Source of the DNA: Desulfuromonadales bacterium
Lineage (GTDB): Bacteria > Desulfobacterota > Desulfuromonadia > Desulfuromonadales > BM103
NCBI GenBank assembly: GCA_027065695.1
Contig: JAMONP010000013.1
Coordinates: 1-50,537 of the forward strand
DNA length: 50,537 nucleotides
Reading direction: 5' to 3'
Position 1 is the stretch's first letter, and each line of letters begins with the position of its first letter. Shown here piece after piece: positions 2,587 through 16,284 of this stretch. The notes beneath the pieces were generated by a model. That model was not told the origin of the DNA. It did no database searches and worked only from the letters and a program-made list of their open reading frames with translations. Made by a program: the position numbers and the translations under genes.

Positions 2587-4392
2587 ATGAAACAGTCACA
2601 GATTCGCAATTTTTCTATTATTGCCCATATCGATCATGGCAAATCAACCTTGGCAGACCGTCTTCTTGAGGTGACCGGAGCTCTTTCCGACCGCGAGAAG
2701 ACCAACCAGTTTCTCGACAAGATGGATCTGGAACGCGAGCGTGGTATTACCATCAAGGCACAGGCGGTACGCTTGAATTATCGAGCAGACGATGGTGAAG
2801 ATTATATTCTCAACCTGATCGATACGCCAGGTCATGTTGACTTCACTTACGAAGTCAGTCGATCTCTATCAGCCTGCGAAGGTGCCTTGCTGGTAGTCGA
2901 TGCCTCGCAGGGTGTTGAGGCACAAACACTGGCCAATGTTTACCTGGCCATTGATGAGAACCTCGAAGTCTTTCCGGTCTTGAACAAGATCGATCTGCCC
3001 AGTGCCGATGCTGAACGGGTACGGGATGAAATTGAGGAGATCATTGGTCTAGACGCCAGCGACGCCGTACTTGCCAGCGCCAAAGAGGGTATTGGCATTG
3101 ATGAGATCCTCGAGGCAATTGTACATAACATCCCGGCACCACAAGGTGATCCTGATGCACCCCTGAAAGCTCTGATCTTTGATTCCTGGTACGATCCTTA
3201 CCAGGGTGTTATCGTTCTTATTCGTGTGATCGACGGTGCAGTAAAAAAGGGCGACCGTATCTGCTTGATGGCGAGTCGCAAGGAATACGAGGTGCTTAAA
3301 GTCGGTGTTTTTGCCCCACACACGATGGCGGTAAATGAGCTCTCTGCCGGGGAAGTTGGTTTCCTTGCCGCCAGCATCAAGGTGGTTCAGGATGCCACCG
3401 TTGGTGATACCATCACTCATGTGCGCAATCCAACGGAAAAAGCATTGCCCGGTTTCAAAGAAGTCAAACCGATGGTTTTTTCCGGTCTTTATCCGATCGA
3501 CTCCGGTGATTATGACGACTTACGCGACGCCATGGAGAAGTTGCGCCTCAATGACCGATCATTCACTTTCGAACCGGAAAATTCGATGGCACTTGGCTTC
3601 GGCTTTCGCTGTGGCTTCCTCGGGTTGTTGCATATGGAAATCATTCAGGAACGTCTGGAGCGCGAGTTCGGCGTTAGCCTGATCACTACTGCGCCGACCG
3701 TTGTTTACCGGGTGACCACCAACAAGGGCGAGACAATCAATGTTGACAGTGCCAATAAACTGCCTGATGTCCAGAACATAGACAAGATTGAAGAGCCGTT
3801 CATCCTTGCCTCCATCCATGTGCCGACCGAATTTGTCGGTGCAGTACTGGCTCTCTGCGAAGAGAAGCGTGGTATACAGCGTGAAATTAAATACCTTACG
3901 GCCACTCGCGTTATTGTTATCTATGAGCTACCGCTCAATGAAATTGTTCTCGACTTCTATGACCGCCTTAAAACTCTGTCACGTGGTTACGCTTCACTAG
4001 ATTACGATCATCTCGACTATCGGCCGAGTGAGCTGGTGCGTCTTAATGTTCTGATTAACGGTGATCTGGTCGATGCGCTTTCCCTGATTGTACATCGCGA
4101 AAAATCTCAGCACCGTGGACGCGATCTGGTTTCAACAATGAAAAAGTTTATCCCCAGACAGCAATTCGAGGTGGCGATTCAGGCAGCTATCGGCAACAAG
4201 GTTATCGCGCGAGAGACAGTTAAAGCTTTACGTAAAGATGTTACGGCAAAGTGCTATGGTGGCGACATAACTCGCAAACGCAAACTGCTTGAAAAACAGA
4301 AGGCAGGTAAAAAGCGTATGAAACAGGTCGGCAATGTCGAATTGCCCCAGGAAGCCTTCCTGGCCATATTGAAAGTGAAGGAAACCAAATAA
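2587..4392 (+). CDS. lepA: Elongation factor 4 (LepA)
   Basis: Full-length (601 residues) translational GTPase. The G1 motif AHIDHGKST stands near residue 15, the G2 region [11 protein letters not shown] near 55, G3 DTPGHVDF near 80 and G4 NKID near 135; the C-terminal half carries the LepA-specific domain with RLNVLINGD and a basic tail (GKKRMKQVG). LepA acts on ribosomes, with a role in initiation or in back-translocation of stalled complexes. The stop codon overlaps the lepB start (TAATG), so the two are translationally coupled, an arrangement common in proteobacteria. The ATG at 2587 has only a distant AAGGA upstream. Confidence 0.98.
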
Positions 4393-5051
4393 TGGCTTTT
4401 CTCAGCAAGAAAAAGGACACCTATAAACAAGTGAAACCGAAGAAGTCGCAGCTACGTGACTGGACCGAAGCGTTATTTGTTGCGGCGATTTTAGCCCTGA
4501 TTATTCGTACCTTTGTTGTGCAGGCTTTCAAAATTCCTTCCGGTTCGATGGAAGACACTCTGTTGATTGGTGATCATCTGTTGGTCAATAAGTTCATCTA
4601 CGGAACTCATCTGCCTTTTGTCGATGATGAAATCTTAGCGGTTCGCGATCCTGAACGTGGCGACGTCATCGTATTCGTGTTTCCTGAAGACAAGAATAAG
4701 TCTTATTTCAAGCGACGTGATTTCATCAAGAGAGTTATCGGTGTGCCTGGAGACAAGATCGAAATTCGCAGCAAGAATGTCTTTGTCAACGACAAGCGTT
4801 ATCTGACTCCTCAGGCTGTTTTCAAGGATGGTACACTAACCACTGGTCCTCGCGACAATATGCGACCGATCACTGTGCCGCCAAACAAGTACTTTGTTAT
4901 GGGTGACAACCGCGATCGCTCCTACGACAGTCGCTTCTGGAGATTTGTTGATAGATCAGCTATCAAGGGTATGGCGTTCATCAAATACTGGTCATGGAAC
5001 AGCGAGAAATTCAGGCCGCGCTGGAACCGCATAGGCCGACTGATAAAGTAA
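4392..5051 (+). CDS. lepB: Signal peptidase I
   Basis: A 219-residue S26 peptidase. One membrane segment is visible at about 26-45 (ALFVAAILALIIRTFVVQAF). The catalytic serine is Ser52 in PSGSMEDTL and the general-base lysine is Lys113 in FIKRVIGVPGD; the late box MGDNRDRSYDSRFW is present. It would cleave signal peptides of exported preproteins at the outer face of the inner membrane. It is shorter than the E. coli enzyme, which has a second membrane segment and a larger insertion. Its start overlaps the lepA stop by one base. Confidence 0.97.
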   Translation: MAFLSKKKDTYKQVKPKKSQLRDWTEALFVAAILALIIRTFVVQAFKIPSGSMEDTLLIGDHLLVNKFIYGTHLPFVDDEILAVRDPERGDVIVFVFPEDKNKSYFKRRDFIKRVIGVPGDKIEIRSKNVFVNDKRYLTPQAVFKDGTLTTGPRDNMRPITVPPNKYFVMGDNRDRSYDSRFWRFVDRSAIKGMAFIKYWSWNSEKFRPRWNRIGRLIK

Positions 5052-6680: not shown

Positions 6681-8483
6681 ATGAGCGGATGCTATGGAAA
6701 ACTGTTGCGCGTTGATCTAACAGCTGGAACCTGTAAGATCGAGGCTCTTAACGATAAATGGGCGAAAGAATTTATCGGCGGACGAGGTCTGGCCTCAAAG
6801 TACCTGGCTGAAGAGGTAGCTGCAGATATTGACGCACTCTCCCCGAAAAATAAATTAATTATGGCCACCGGTCCCTTGACCGGGACTTACGGCGCGGCCA
6901 ATGGCCGTTATATGGTGGTGACCAAGTCACCGTTGACCGGCACGATTGCCAGTTCCAACTCGGGTGGTTATTTCCCTTGTGAACTGCGCTATGCCGGTTT
7001 CAGTATGATCATCTTCGAAGGCAAGGCAGAACATCCCTGTTATCTGCAAATTTATAATGATCGGGTTGAACTGGTAGGAGCTGTCCATCTCTGGGGAAAA
7101 CCGACCCAAGAAACCGAAGATGCAATTCTTGCCGAGTTTCATGGTGATGCCAAGGTTGCCTGTATAGGTCCTGCCGGTGAAAACCAGGTGCTTTTTGCCA
7201 ATATTATGAATGACAAGCATCGTGCCTCAGGCCGCAGCGGGGTTGGTGCCGTAATGGGCAGCAAGAATCTCAAAGCGGTTGCTGTTCGTGGCACAGGAGG
7301 CGTCAAGGTTGCCAAGCCGGCGGCTTTCAGGGAGACCGCTATTGAGACTTACGGTATGCTTAAAGAGAACCCGGTCTCTGGTGAAGGGCTTCCTGCTCTC
7401 GGCACCCCGGTGCTGGTCAATGTTATCAATCAGTTTGGTGCATTGCCAACCCGGAATTTTCAAGAGGATACTTTTGCCGGAGCAGAGGCAATTTCCGGTG
7501 AGGCCCTTGCGGCAACCTACCTGAAGCGCAACAAAGGATGTATGGGCTGTGTTATAGGCTGTGGCCGTGTGACCAGCCTCAGTGGCGCTCGCTTCAGTGG
7601 TTCTGGTGAGGGTCCTGAGTACGAAACACTCTGGTCTCTGGGCGCTACTTGCGGAGTTGACGATCTGGCAGCCATCACCAAGGCTAATTATATCTGCAAT
7701 GAATATGGTATGGATACCATAACTGCTGGAGCAACAGTCGCCTGCGCCATGGAGCTCTATGAAAAAGGGCTGATCAACGAGGCAGAAATTGGCATGTCAC
7801 TTAACTTTGGTGATGCAGATGCTATGGTCAAGCTGGTTGAGATGGCTGCAAAGAAGGAAGGCTTCGGTGCAAAGATTGCGCTCGGCTCCTATCGACTGGC
7901 GGAAAGTTACGGTGCCCCCGAACTTTCGATGACGGTTAAAAAACAGGAGTTTCCTGCTTATGACGGCCGGGGCATGCAGGGGATGGCGCTGAATTATGCC
8001 ACCAGCAACCGTGGCGCTTGCCATGTGCGTGGCTACCTGGTGTCACCGGAGATTCTCGGCTTACCGGAAAAAATTGATCCACAGGCAACCGACGGCAAAG
8101 CCACCTGGGCCAAGATCTTCCAGGATTTCACAGCCGTCGTCGATTCTGTCGGTGTTTGCCTGTTTACCACTTTTGCCTTAGGCGTACCCCAGTTTGCCAA
8201 GTTTTACTCAGCTGCAACCGGGGTCGAGCTCACCGATGAAGGACTTCTCGAAGCCGGTGACCGGATCTATAATCTGGAGCGGGTATTCAATCTGGCGGCG
8301 GGCATTGACCCATCACAAGACACTCTACCGAAACGTCTGTTGGAAGACCCGATATCCGATGGTCCGCTCAAGGGTGAAGTGGCCAAACTGGATCAGATGC
8401 TACCCGAGTATTATGAGCAGCGCGGCTGGAGTGTTAAAGGGATTCCAAGCAAGAAAAAGCTTCAAGAGCTCGGATTGGCTTGA
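6681..8483 (+). CDS. aorB: Tungsten aldehyde:ferredoxin oxidoreductase, catalytic subunit
   Basis: A 600-residue AOR-family enzyme. The N-terminal [12 protein letters not shown] and the cluster ligands Cys287, Cys290, Cys294 (CMGCVIGC) and Cys493 (DSVGVC) are all present, together with [15 protein letters not shown], which lines the pterin site in known structures. The family binds one W-bis-pyranopterin and one [4Fe-4S] cluster and oxidises aldehydes to acids, or runs in reverse at low potential. Substrate cannot be assigned, but the operon context favours the multi-subunit bacterial AOR type that can use NAD+ as well as ferredoxin or viologens. The gene begins one base after aorA and its TGA overlaps the next ATG. 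Confidence 0.93.
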
Positions 8484-9709
8484 TGTCTGCTCATTACGAT
8501 TTCGTTATCATCGGCAACAGTGCCGCCGGATTGCAGGCGTTGCGTACACTCCGGCGGCACGATCGGCATTCGACAATTGCCATCATTGACCGGGAGGACT
8601 GTCCGGCCTACTCACGGGTATTGACCCCTTATTATATCGGCGGTCATATTGCACGAGAGGAGCTTAATATTGTCGACCAAAGCTTCTATGATAGCCTCGG
8701 AATTACGACTCTTTTCGGCCAGACGGTGGTCGCCTTTGATCCTGAAAAACATTCGCTGCAACTGGTGGATGGCCGCGATATAGGCTTTGGCAAACTGCTG
8801 TTGGCTACTGGTGCCGAAGCACGTACTCTGACTGTTTCTGCGCAGCGATCCTGTGTGCTGCGACATTTGGCTGACGCGGACAAGCTGGTCGGTTTGCTGA
8901 AGGAAGCACAAAGTATCACTGCAATTGGTGCCGGACTGGTCAGCCTGCCGCTGCTCTCACATGCGCACAAAGAGATCGAAAAACATCTGATCGTCGGTTC
9001 AGATCGAATTTTCAGCCGGGTGGTTGATGCCGATGCTGCCGAAATTCTCGAAGAACTGTTGACATCACAGGGTTTAAATATCTACAAGCAGGATGATATC
9101 AAGACCATCAAAGAAGAGGCGCAGCTACAGCTGACGCTGAATTCTGGCAAGCAGCTGGCCAGTGACCTGCTGATTGTCGGCAAGGGTGTGACACCGAACA
9201 CTCATTTGGCGGTTGAGGCAGGTCTTGATGTTGAATATGGGGTAAGCATCGACCGTTTCTGTTGCAGTAACCACCCGGATGTTTTTGCTGCTGGGGATGC
9301 TGCCGAGGGTGCGGATTTTGTTACTGGAGAACTGACTATCCAGGGTAACTGGATGACTGCCGTGGAGCAAGGGGAAAATGCCGCACTGAATATGCTTGGC
9401 ATGCAATGCCATTATCCGGGTAGTCTGAAGAACAACATTACGGAAATCTTTGGTATTGAAGTCGCGGCAGTCGGCTACTGTCATGATGATGTCAGCAAGA
9501 CCGCCATAAGCTGGAATGCTATGACCGGACGCTTCCGCAAGGTTTTCCTCGATGAAAAGCAACGGGTCGTTGGCACCACCATGATCGGTGAAACCAACGA
9601 TTCCGGCCTCTATTATCATCTGGTCAGCACCCACAGCATATTCCCTGGCAAAGGACTGCTCAGTGGCAACGCCAATTACGCCCAGACTCAGTTTCGTTTG
9701 GAAACTTAG
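8483..9709 (+). CDS. aorC: FAD/NAD(P)-dependent oxidoreductase, AOR FAD subunit
   Basis: A 408-residue protein of the class I pyridine nucleotide-disulfide reductase fold. The FAD dinucleotide motif is VIIGNSAAGLQA near residue 10, a second fold begins at ITAIGAGLVSLPL near 145, and HPDVFAAGDAA near 260 is the second FAD-binding motif. No redox-active CxxxxC is seen, so it resembles ferredoxin/NADH oxidoreductase subunits and not thiol reductases. A TTG at 8480 is possible, but the ATG at 8483 overlaps the aorB stop as TGATG and is preferred. It would connect the AOR to NAD(H). Confidence 0.85.
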   Translation: MSAHYDFVIIGNSAAGLQALRTLRRHDRHSTIAIIDREDCPAYSRVLTPYYIGGHIAREELNIVDQSFYDSLGITTLFGQTVVAFDPEKHSLQLVDGRDIGFGKLLLATGAEARTLTVSAQRSCVLRHLADADKLVGLLKEAQSITAIGAGLVSLPLLSHAHKEIEKHLIVGSDRIFSRVVDADAAEILEELLTSQGLNIYKQDDIKTIKEEAQLQLTLNSGKQLASDLLIVGKGVTPNTHLAVEAGLDVEYGVSIDRFCCSNHPDVFAAGDAAEGADFVTGELTIQGNWMTAVEQGENAALNMLGMQCHYPGSLKNNITEIFGIEVAAVGYCHDDVSKTAISWNAMTGRFRKVFLDEKQRVVGTTMIGETNDSGLYYHLVSTHSIFPGKGLLSGNANYAQTQFRLET

Positions 9710-9720
9710 AGATTAACGCC

Positions 9721-10002
9721 ATGATCCGGATTCAATTCTACAGTTTGTTGCGACTGTTGCTGAAAGAGGAAAAGCTGGACCTGCCTGCCTGTACAGATGA
9801 AAACATAGAGCAACTGCTACAGCGTGTTCAAAAACACTTTTCTACACCTTTTTTGCATAAGTTGTTGGATGACCAGGGAGGGTTGCACGCTGGAACTATC
9901 ATTATGGTCAATCGGCGCAACATCCTGCACCTTGAAAGCCTAGAAACACCAGTGAGAGATGGAGACCTGATCGCATTTTTTCCGCCAGGTGCTGGTGGCT
10001 GA
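9721..10002 (+). CDS. aorD: MoaD/ThiS-like sulfur carrier
   Basis: A 93-residue beta-grasp protein ending in PGAGG. The terminal Gly-Gly is the hallmark of MoaD and ThiS, which are adenylated and thiocarboxylated there to donate sulfur. IMVNRRNI and RDGDLIAFFPP fit the last strands of the fold. Its place directly after AOR genes suggests it supplies the dithiolene sulfur of the tungsten pterin cofactor, in parallel with any housekeeping MoaD elsewhere. It ends two bases before the GTG of the next gene. Confidence 0.88.
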   Translation: MIRIQFYSLLRLLLKEEKLDLPACTDENIEQLLQRVQKHFSTPFLHKLLDDQGGLHAGTIIMVNRRNILHLESLETPVRDGDLIAFFPPGAGG

Positions 10003-10004
10003 AG

Positions 10005-10676
10005 GTGGCGGTTGATGAACGCTACATGCGGCAGGTTCTGCATTGGGGTAAGGAGAAGCAGCGACGGCTTGAGACCGCTAGAGTTCTGGTTGCTGGCATC
10101 GGCGGCCTCGGGGCAACCGTCAGTCAACTGCTGGCACGCGCCGGTGTCGGTAAACTTTACCTGGTGGACGATGGCTTGGTTGATTGGCCTGACCTGCATC
10201 GCCAGTTACTATATACCGAAGCAGATATTGGCCGATCGAAACTGGACATCGCCAAAGAGCGTCTTCTGCAGATAAACAGTACCGTCAGGGTAGAGTTACT
10301 TCCAGGTCGTATCGACACCTCTTTCAAACTCCCTGCAGACATTTCATTTGTTGCTGACTGCCTGGATAATTACTCCAGTCGTTTCGACCTTGAGGTCTGT
10401 TTACCCTCCGGCACATTTCTGGTTCATGGTGGCATAGAAAGAGAGCAGGGCCAGGTTCTGACGCTTAAGGTTGGTAATTCACAACCATTAGCAGAGATTT
10501 TTTCTGGTGCCCTTCAGCCAGCAGGAAAAATCCCCGTCACTGGTGATGGGGTTGTAATAATTGCGGGCCTCATGGCCAATGAATTATTCAGCGTTATTTT
10601 CGGTCAACCTAAATTACTCAATCGCTGCCTGGTTGTGGGGCTAGGGGATCTGCATCTGTCATTTTTGGATGTTTGA
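10005..10676 (+). CDS. aorE: MoeB/ThiF-like E1 adenylyltransferase
   Basis: A 223-residue E1-like protein starting with GTG, next to its presumed partner carrier. GIGGLGATVSQLLARAG (about 30-46) is the ATP-binding glycine loop; DDGLVDWPDLHRQ and the following R/K/D positions match the adenylation site. It is shorter than MoeB and lacks the two CxxC pairs that bind structural zinc; the region where MoeB has YRCL reads GNSQPLAEIF. Some short HesA/MoeB-like enzymes are known to lack zinc, so activity is still likely. It would adenylate the Gly-Gly tail of the MoaD-like protein encoded upstream. Confidence 0.85.
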   Translation: MAVDERYMRQVLHWGKEKQRRLETARVLVAGIGGLGATVSQLLARAGVGKLYLVDDGLVDWPDLHRQLLYTEADIGRSKLDIAKERLLQINSTVRVELLPGRIDTSFKLPADISFVADCLDNYSSRFDLEVCLPSGTFLVHGGIEREQGQVLTLKVGNSQPLAEIFSGALQPAGKIPVTGDGVVIIAGLMANELFSVIFGQPKLLNRCLVVGLGDLHLSFLDV

Positions 10677-11402: not shown

Positions 11403-11603
11403 TTAGATTTTTTGCACGTTGGATGACTGGGGGCCTTTCTGGCCTTCTGTAACATCAAAGCTTACCCGGTCTCCCTCAGCGAGAGATTTGAAACCATCGC
11501 CTTGGATTTCTGAGAAGTGGACGAACACATCCGGTCCATTGTCCTGCTCGATAAAACCAAAACCCTTTGCGTCGTTGAACCACTTCACTGTACCTTCTGC
11601 CAT
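11403..11603 (-). CDS. Cold-shock protein, CspA family (copy 1)
   Basis: A 66-residue single cold-shock domain. RNP1 is KGFGFI and RNP2 is VFVHFS, both intact. It binds single-stranded RNA and DNA and acts as an RNA chaperone. The open frame extends 15 codons upstream, but MAEGTV with GGAGGAG seven bases before it is the family start. It differs from the second copy (15890-16090) at only a few residues, all in the last twenty. Both copies share the promoter spacing and a leader of about 158 nt. Confidence 0.97.
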
Positions 11604-11762
11604 TTTCTCCTCCATGTTCCCCCGTGGGGACTCTTTAGGTTGTGCCAATCCAGATCGCCCGAAAAAACAAAAAACACACAGCCCATTGCGGGCCTCATTG
11701 CTCTGATCAATCCTGACACCATGTCAAACTGATGAGCGACGAAAAAACACAAACTTCATAAC
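11604..11762 (-). promoter_or_regulatory. Conserved 5' leader of csp copy 1
   Basis: From the predicted transcription start to the ATG this leader is about 159 nt. Blocks shared with the leader of csp copy 2 include TTTTCGTCGCTCA, CAGTTTGACA with GGTGTCA (a small stem-loop), CTGTGTGTTTTTT and a GC-rich hairpin just before the ribosome site. Long structured leaders are known to act as temperature sensors in cspA mRNAs; a similar role here is inferred from the conservation. Confidence 0.65.
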
Positions 11763-11798: not shown

Positions 11799-11931
11799 AG
11801 AAAAAACGGGTATTTCTATTTATAAAATGATGTTTTACCCTATGTCATAATTTTATAGATGTAAAAGGTGTTCAAAACAAGTGCGTTTCTTTTGTGTATT
11901 CACCTGTGACCAGGCAAGGCATAATAGGGGC

Positions 11932-12810
11932 ATGTCACTCTATTACTTCACTCGTTTCAATAAATTGAACCGGCGTTTGATCCTTTTGTTGATTGCCAGT
12001 CACTTGCTGTGGAGCATTGCTGTCTTCGGGCTCTGGTCGATCGGAAGTCTGGTTGAAGCGACAACCCCATGGTGGTCTGGTGTATTCATCGCCCTGCAAC
12101 TCTATGCCGCTGCCCAACTGCTCATGCCCGCACTGCTGCTGCATCCTGAGCAACGAAACCGTGGCTTTTATTTCTTCTGGGGAGCGACCCTGGCACTGAG
12201 TATCTGGCTAATTAATCAACTGACTCCAGTCGTTGCCTGGCAACCGTTGCTGGCTGCAATCAAGTCGGGCCTGCTTTTATTGGTAGCAACCGTCATCGGA
12301 GCAGCCTTGGCCAGATACATCCATCGACTGTGGGAGATCGTTCCGGTCTGTATTGTTATGACTTTGGCCGACTTTGCCAGTTGGCTCTACGGTCCAACCG
12401 CTGGTTTTACGCAGGAGATCAAACAATACTACCTGGCACCCAAGGGGCCTCCGCCACTTATCGACATGGTTCTGGTAAAACTGGCATTCCCCGGTCCTGC
12501 TGGGTTGGCACCGGTCTTCGGCATCTCTGACTGGATTATGGTCGTATTCTTCGCTATCGTCGCTGGTCGCTATGAGGTCAATGACAATCTGGTCGGGCCA
12601 CCAGGGGAGAAACTGGCGCGGCAGGGCAGGATAGGTCGTTATCTGCCAGTCTCAGTAGTGGCGCTCTTTATCGCAATAGTGTTAGCACAAGCAACCGGTC
12701 TTTTCATCCCGGCATTACCATTGATCGCCCTGATCATGCTCCTCTGGTACGCTGCCCGCTACCTGTTGCGGCGTCAAACCCATAAGAAACATCTTAATAC
12801 TGATAACTGA
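11932..12810 (+). CDS. Presenilin/signal-peptide-peptidase-like membrane protein
   Basis: A 292-residue protein with about eight to nine hydrophobic segments and little soluble sequence. Three motifs stand in the order and spacing of GxGD intramembrane aspartyl proteases: Asp147 in TLADFASWLYG (compare YD in transmembrane segment 6), Asp200 in VFGISDWIM (compare GxGD in segment 7) and PALP at 260-263 (the PAL motif of segment 9). The aspartates are 53 residues apart and PAL follows 60 later; human SPP has about 46 and 52. Gly-Ile-Ser-Asp replaces the second glycine of GxGD. If active, it would cut membrane helices. The frame opens with GTG at 11881, but the ATG at 11932 follows AGGGG and is preferred. 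It is divergent from csp copy 1. The family call is my own reading of motifs. Confidence 0.55.
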   Translation: MSLYYFTRFNKLNRRLILLLIASHLLWSIAVFGLWSIGSLVEATTPWWSGVFIALQLYAAAQLLMPALLLHPEQRNRGFYFFWGATLALSIWLINQLTPVVAWQPLLAAIKSGLLLLVATVIGAALARYIHRLWEIVPVCIVMTLADFASWLYGPTAGFTQEIKQYYLAPKGPPPLIDMVLVKLAFPGPAGLAPVFGISDWIMVVFFAIVAGRYEVNDNLVGPPGEKLARQGRIGRYLPVSVVALFIAIVLAQATGLFIPALPLIALIMLLWYAARYLLRRQTHKKHLNTDN

Positions 12811-12839: not shown

Positions 12840-13178
12840 TCATTTCCGCCGCCGACGCGGACGACGTGCTGGCCGCTTTGGTTTCTCTGCAACAGTCTCC
12901 ACAGGAGCTGCAGCAGGCTTTTTTGGCAGTGCTGCCCTGACACTGATGCAACGATCGATAAGTCTGGTACCGTCAAGCATGAGTGCTTCCCTGGCTTCGG
13001 CAGCCGTTGACATATGCACGAAGGCGGTGCCTTTGAACAGGCCAGACTTCTGATCTGTCATCATGTAAATTGAGCGCACTGTTCCGCATATAGCAAATAG
13101 CTTTCGTAAATCCTCTTCTTCGACTTCGAAGGAGATATCGGTTATGTACAAGTCTTTATTTGTCGATTTTTCTTTCAT
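12840..13178 (-). CDS. RRM-domain RNA-binding protein
   Basis: A 112-residue protein with one RNA recognition motif: RNP2 is LYITDI near residue 10 and RNP1 is KGTAFVHM near 49. A proline/alanine linker and a tail of arginines (RRPRRRRK) follow. Small RRM proteins of this form occur in cyanobacteria and many proteobacteria and bind RNA; their targets are mostly unknown. GGAGAG stands eight bases upstream of the ATG. The gene is bracketed by near-identical 13-bp segments (12803-12815 and 13252-13264). Confidence 0.93.
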   Translation of the reverse strand: MKEKSTNKDLYITDISFEVEEEDLRKLFAICGTVRSIYMMTDQKSGLFKGTAFVHMSTAAEAREALMLDGTRLIDRCISVRAALPKKPAAAPVETVAEKPKRPARRPRRRRK

Positions 13179-15889: not shown

Positions 15890-16090
15890 TTAAGCTCTGT
15901 TCACATTAGATGCCTGGGGGCCTTTCTGACCTTCAGTAACATCAAAATTTACTCGATCTCCCTCGGCGAGAGATTTGAAACCATCGCCTTGGATTTCTGA
16001 GAAGTGGACGAACACATCCGGTCCGTTGTCCTGCTCGATAAAACCAAAACCCTTTGCGTCGTTAAACCACTTCACTGTACCTTCTGCCAT
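15890..16090 (-). CDS. Cold-shock protein, CspA family (copy 2)
   Basis: A 66-residue cold-shock domain, identical to copy 1 over its first 47 residues and differing only near the end (DRVNF in place of DRVSF, and ASNVNRA in place of SSNVQKI). RNP1 KGFGFI and RNP2 VFVHFS are intact. An in-frame ATG four codons upstream overlaps the ribosome site and is not the likely start. The gene is followed by a terminator and by a small Lys/Glu-rich frame. The two csp genes are about 4.3 kb apart on the same strand. Confidence 0.97.
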
Positions 16091-16248
16091 TTTTCTCTCC
16101 ATGTTCCCCTTTGGGAACTTTTTGTTGTGTAGATCCTGGTCGCCCGTAAAATAAAAAACACACAGTCCAAGCGGTCTGTGTGATCGGTTTACATGTTGAC
16201 ACCTTGTCAAACTGGTGAGCGACGAAAAGTACACAAACTTTCTTAAGT
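16091..16248 (-). promoter_or_regulatory. Conserved 5' leader of csp copy 2
   Basis: About 158 nt, nearly the same length as the copy 1 leader, with the same blocks in the same order. GTTCCC-AAAG-GGGAAC makes a perfect small stem ending three bases before the GGAGAG ribosome site, and TTGACA-AGG-TGTCAA makes another near the 5' end. The conservation outside the coding region argues for selection on RNA structure. Confidence 0.65.
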
Positions 16249-16254
16249 TTTCGC

Positions 16255-16284
16255 ACATTAGCACAGTGGGCTTTTTAAAGGCAA
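16255..16284 (-). promoter_or_regulatory. Predicted sigma70 promoter of csp copy 2
   Basis: TTGCCT (16279-16284) and TAATGT (16255-16260) on the minus strand, 18 bases apart, with CACTGTG shared with the copy 1 promoter. Confidence 0.6.

Follow-up and report, generated by a model that had tools for sequence, protein, structure and literature searches.

Presenilin is the protease linked to Alzheimer's disease, and in those parts of the literature on which we draw, proteases of the presenilin and signal peptide peptidase (SPP) type are described from eukaryotes and archaea. Here we describe a gene at positions 11932-12810 (forward strand) of a 50,537-nucleotide stretch of Desulfuromonadales DNA (contig JAMONP010000013.1; the whole stretch is called the window), whose product is predicted to be a bacterial variant of the presenilin/SPP kind that the family databases do not name. 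The frame is intact and open from an ATG for 292 codons; there is an alternative upstream start, a GTG at 11881, and in tblastn many relatives match from residue 1 of the ATG version onwards.

Human SPP and SPPL2a (Peptidase_A22B) share with the window protein and its relatives the predicted fold, two aspartates in adjacent helices, a PAL motif and a predicted active site on the exoplasmic side, whereas the window family has eight helices rather than nine, AD rather than YD, Gx[S/A/T/V]D rather than GxGD, no profile match and a bacterial source. The two aspartates are 53 residues apart in the window protein, compared with 46 in SPP (D219, D265). Relative to presenilin-1 and -2 (PF01080, the catalytic subunit of gamma-secretase), the window family has a loop of about 45 residues and the opposite predicted orientation. 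The prepilin peptidases and FlaK (A24) are also membrane aspartyl proteases with a GxGD-like motif, but none of 32 members of the window family matches Pfam A24, and to our knowledge A24 enzymes have no PAL motif. The archaeal PSH (MCMJR1, PF06550) is the reverse of the window family, with YD and GxGD and, in the portion of the source cited, no obvious PAL (PPL; PMC2947513).

An earlier note on this DNA, made from the sequence, had placed D147, D200 and a PALP at 260-263 and had remarked that the second Gly of GxGD is a Ser; all of these are exactly where it put them (the Ser is residue 199), and the D...GxxD...PAL order and spacing of GxGD aspartyl proteases that it described is present at presenilin-like distances. 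That pattern alone is weak evidence, because 179 of 20,000 shuffled sequences of the same composition (0.9%) also have it, as does one of the 52 stop-to-stop frames of at least 150 residues in the window, namely the 11932-12810 frame. Alignment of homologues, however, bears the note out in that D147, D200 and the P and L of PAL are kept. Among 65 distinct rows, which represent the loci fetched and not all 72 matching genomes, every one of the 63 letters at position 147 is Asp (two gaps), and G197, D200, P260 and L262 are each kept in 64 of 64 (one gap); A261 is alanine in 57 of 64 (V 5, G 2) and P263 is proline in 60 (V 4). In a first alignment D147 was found in 63 of 64 rows, the exception being L079 (genome G072), whose letter at this position is unreliable because the gene matches in two pieces in different frames, apparently through a broken gene or an assembly error. 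A 32-member alignment with identities down to 25% has 19 invariant columns, including D147, S150, G154, P155, K183, F196, G197, D200, P260 and L262. The two aspartates lie in adjacent predicted transmembrane helices (133-152 and 198-213) and helix 261-290 starts at the PAL motif. The residues that a presenilin-like active site would require, two aspartates and the P and L of PAL, are those that the alignments show as invariant. Separately, four loci (L075, L081, L082, L083) have PALV or PGLV in place of PALP, and 15 of 63 rows (among L068-L083) continue past the PAL helix into a further hydrophobic segment.

The similarity to presenilins is also seen at the level of predicted structure. The AlphaFold model of the window protein has a predicted local distance difference test (pLDDT) score of 83.4 and a predicted template modelling (pTM) score of 0.83. 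When this model and that of L033 are compared with known structures, presenilin, SPPL2a and PSH rank above all else: they take all of the first 21 rows in one comparison and of the first 20 in the other, well ahead of the row that follows; this ranking is limited to the sets compared, and an unlisted fold could lie outside them. The best Z scores to SPPL2a are 10.8 and 11.9 in the two models. The presenilin fold is thus found in the predicted models, and we consider it very probable that the protein itself has the presenilin/SPP fold. The features of the gene and model (all on the forward strand) are as follows.

11932..12810, +, coding sequence of the predicted presenilin/SPP-fold protein, 292 residues, 8 predicted transmembrane helices (open frame; matched in 72 of the order's 136 genomes; AlphaFold model)
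12328..12387, +, helix 133-152 bearing the first aspartate, proposed counterpart of presenilin TM6 (DSSP on model)
12370..12372, +, Asp147 codon, proposed first catalytic aspartate (Asp in all 63 letters)
12394..12435, +, helix 155-168, following the helix of the first aspartate, possible counterpart of presenilin TM6a (DSSP; 155-166 in the L033 model)
12472..12486, +, beta strand 181-185, part of the loop that joins the catalytic helices, holding L181 and K183 (DSSP, both models; both residues invariant in the 32-member alignment)
12505..12522, +, beta strand 192-197, immediately preceding the second catalytic helix, proposed counterpart of presenilin/PSH beta-2 (DSSP, both models; counterpart from the portion of PMC9282858 cited)
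12520..12531, +, G197-x-S199-D200, GxGD-like with Ser for the second Gly, D200 being the proposed second catalytic aspartate (conservation)
12523..12570, +, helix 198-213, proposed counterpart of presenilin TM7 (DSSP on model)
12709..12720, +, P260-A-L-P263, PAL motif where the last helix begins (conservation)
12712..12801, +, last helix 261-290, proposed counterpart of presenilin TM9 (DSSP on model)

The distribution of charge suggests how the protein sits in the membrane. Averaged over 63 rows, net charge is positive at the N-terminus and start of helix A (+0.38, +2.05), in loops D-E (+2.00) and F-G (+1.75) and at the C-terminus (+2.97); the loops on the same side as the aspartates and PAL are negative or close to neutral (-0.33, +0.16, -0.30, +0.05). 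By the positive-inside rule this pattern places the active site on the periplasmic side with both termini in the cytoplasm. The available accounts put the catalytic residues of SPP near the lumenal surface and orient presenilin oppositely, and with a periplasmic active site, as in SPP, segments running N-in/C-out, such as spent signal peptides, would be the natural substrates.

We propose that the gene product acts as a stand-alone intramembrane aspartyl protease of the presenilin/SPP fold, in which D147 (helix 5) and D200 (start of helix 6) would activate a water molecule between them, and the active site would be shaped by two turns, G197-x-S-D and, where helix 8 begins, PAL. The strands before D200 may pair with an unwound, extended stretch of the substrate helix, as in gamma-secretase and SPP; pairing of the beta-2 strand with substrate is described for presenilin and PSH in the portion of the source cited (PMC9282858). 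Likely substrates would be N-in/C-out segments, that is, spent signal peptides or signal anchors. This proposal draws on conservation, the predicted-fold match and the charge pattern, from which we infer catalysis, the pairing of strand and substrate, and the substrate class. That the family is an active intramembrane protease we regard as probable; that it is SPP-like in orientation and role, as moderately likely.

The same catalytic apparatus could instead carry out regulated intramembrane proteolysis of one dedicated regulator, such as an anti-sigma factor, rather than general clearance of signal peptides. A stand-alone gene with no fixed neighbour and a patchy presence (72 of 136 genomes) is as compatible with a dispensable regulatory protease as with a housekeeping enzyme, and SppA is already present in most of these genomes; but no regulator or sigma factor was recognised by eye among the recurrent neighbour clusters shown, and the charge pattern favours the SPP orientation, so that we think this alternative unlikely, though it is the strongest of those considered.

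Several observations weigh against the protease proposal, and a first group concerns the active site and its placement. Loop B-C, expected to be cytoplasmic, has a mean net charge of only +0.25. The YD motif at the first aspartate is replaced by AD: residue 146 is A in 59, V in 3, T in 1 and R in 1 of the 64 rows of the first alignment (the broken L079 being counted), and never Tyr. A strict GxGD is likewise lacking at the second aspartate, where the first G is present in 64 of 64 and residue 199 is S in 49, A in 10, T in 4 and V in 1, and never G. As far as the sequences tell, the replacement of the Tyr and of the second Gly is a genuine departure from the known enzymes. In human SPP, according to the part of the published account used here, G264A is mild, Y218A strongly damaging, and G262A, D219A and L319A poorly tolerated. 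The variation at the second Gly fits the mild effect of G264A, and by analogy the tolerance of SPP to mutation parallels the residues that the family varies and keeps, save for Y218A, whose strong damage would tell against activity in a family with no Tyr at 146.

These departures are also what a pseudoprotease would offer, one in which the presenilin fold was kept for binding transmembrane segments, as a chaperone or scaffold, and catalysis was lost with the Tyr of YD and the second Gly of GxGD. A pseudoprotease, however, would not need the two aspartates, which are invariant in every letter present. The A24 enzyme PibD has been redefined as GxHyD in the portion of the source cited (PMC4343526), so that not every GxGD-type enzyme has the second Gly, and with the mildness of G264A this leaves the loss of catalysis improbable.

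The second group concerns the link to known families. Pfam and NCBIfam name no family for the window protein, and the A22 Pfam models match neither it nor any of the 32 members (E-values up to 10), the best Pfam match of any family among these members being at E 0.012, in one member. The family profile finds only two designed proteins among PDB sequences (E 0.22 and 0.23). The profile-profile comparison that the note had suggested came out mixed. Aligned by hhalign with a profile of four eukaryotic fragments only (SPP, SPPL2a, PS1 and PS2), the best alignment has the right register, placing GISDW on GLGDV through RYEVN on RFDIS, and its score of 18.8 is just above the maximum of 30 column shuffles (18.0) and above the reversed profile (7.0); but the probability is only 1.0%, and the best-scoring shuffle reached E 0.051, slightly better than the real E of 0.054. 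On these comparisons the sequence profiles do not connect the window family with the A22 families. A phmmer search with the SPP fragment retrieves presenilin-1 itself only at E 0.055-0.49, which indicates that weak sequence similarity is normal within the superfamily. For the models, Foldseek finds no match significant at E <= 0.001 with either, its TM-scores are low, the SPPL2a structural register is off by three, and both models share one alignment.

Some other membrane protein, for instance a transporter or a prepilin-peptidase-like enzyme, could resemble presenilin helices and motifs by chance, as the Foldseek and profile results would allow, but the exclusive top ranking of presenilin, SPPL2a and PSH in both models, the wide gap to the next row, and the order and conservation of the motifs make this very hard to credit.

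A stand-alone intramembrane aspartyl protease of the presenilin/SPP fold, in the SPP orientation and clearing signal peptides or signal anchors, therefore remains the reading that we prefer, and we judge it fairly likely. Because it lacks YD, a strict GxGD, nine helices (the model of the window protein has eight long ones) and a profile match, we have not filed it in PF01080, PF04258 or PF06550. More tentatively, and with slightly more doubt than belief, we suggest that the family is a separate bacterial presenilin/SPP branch that has a core of eight helices, is oriented as SPP is, and has a Gx[S/A/T]D active site that works without the canonical Tyr and second Gly; it would serve as a co-factor-free signal peptide peptidase beside SppA, possibly near the minimal core of the superfamily (transmembrane helices TM1 and TM5-TM9).

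Scanning a genome collection with the window protein, which reaches close relatives only, returned 33 relatives, whose records carry the titles Desulfuromonadales or one of its families or genera, Geobacteraceae, or Deltaproteobacteria; among them is the cultured Malonomonas rubra DSM 5091. By protein search the gene is present in 50 of 98 related genomes; a profile search detects it in 72 of the order's 136 genomes (32 of 53 genera), at one place per genome apart from the one two-piece gene. In a phylum-wide draw containing few genomes of the gene's order, with scoring limited to five candidates at most in the genomes shown, three of 395 carry it, all three from this same order. No relative was found on viral contigs or on plasmids (E up to 1). 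We do not claim restriction to Desulfuromonadales, because other phyla were reached only by the close-relative scan. PSH itself (PF06550) has no match in 98 genomes of the order or 297 of the phylum, in a search that matched 2 archaea among 14 control genomes; none was found on the haloarchaeal megaplasmid searched, and tblastn of the SPP fragment against plasmids gave no PSH, and only two matches (E 7 and 9). We found no earlier description of the family in the open literature, nor anything tying presenilin to an intramembrane protease of Deltaproteobacteria or to Desulfuromonadales, although that literature lacks many subscription papers and all bioRxiv preprints, so that a prior description may exist; one paper, in the passage used, mentions a 'bacterial presenilin homologue' but gives it no name.

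A bacterial family with the presenilin predicted fold and an altered active-site motif would show how the positions equivalent to PS1 G384 and Y256, residues connected with Alzheimer mutations, vary in nature. Structural work would gain a small single-subunit protein, and the origin of the presenilin/SPP superfamily could be sought in a new place. The family further raises the question of why some SppA-bearing bacteria keep a second possible signal-peptide-degrading enzyme. An S49/SppA match is present in 128 of 136 genomes of the order, which suggests that the presenilin-like protein works beside SppA and not in its place; complementarity between the two was looked for in the 136 genomes and not seen. 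Of the 84 genomes with a completeness of at least 90% and a contamination of no more than 5%, S49/SppA is matched in 82, and the remaining two (G023, G043) both carry the presenilin-like gene.

There is no constant partner gene across the loci, and the neighbours vary. In the window, lepA (2587-4392, forward strand, by Pfam) is followed by what we take to be lepB, encoding signal peptidase I (4392-5051, forward), whose start overlaps the end of lepA; the pair lies 6.9 kb upstream of the presenilin-like gene. In three genomes of the same genus (G001, G006, G007) and in L010 and L015, which are probably among the same genomes from another collection, the presenilin-like gene begins about 0.3-0.6 kb after what is presumably lepB, and lepA precedes lepB where the locus was read far enough (L010, L015). 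Besides the window, lepB is matched in seven loci (L010, L015, L047, L048, L051, L098, L099). We treat this adjacency as a hint and do not use it as evidence, because L002 and L005, with 5 kb upstream, have no lepB match and many loci carry only about 1.5 kb of flank. Other recurrent neighbours are what we take to be a VF530-like small protein (13 loci) and a SUI1-like protein (11 loci), counts that include duplicate loci of one genome, with nine loci giving no focus frame. In L075, L081 and L083 the presenilin-like gene is followed by a gene that is presumably of the DHH/CBS pyrophosphatase-like type.

Between lepA-lepB and the presenilin-like gene the window has an aldehyde ferredoxin oxidoreductase cluster and other genes. 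Pfam identifies the oxidoreductase at 6681-8483 and a ThiF-family gene at 10005-10676 (both forward), separated by what we take to be FAD-oxidoreductase-like and MoaD-like genes, so that 6681-10676 looks like a tungsten/molybdenum enzyme with its cofactor genes. The presenilin-like gene is flanked at 11403-11648 and 15890-16264 (both reverse) by genes presumably encoding near-identical cold-shock-like proteins, and between these two lies an RRM RNA-binding protein gene (12840-13178, reverse, by Pfam).
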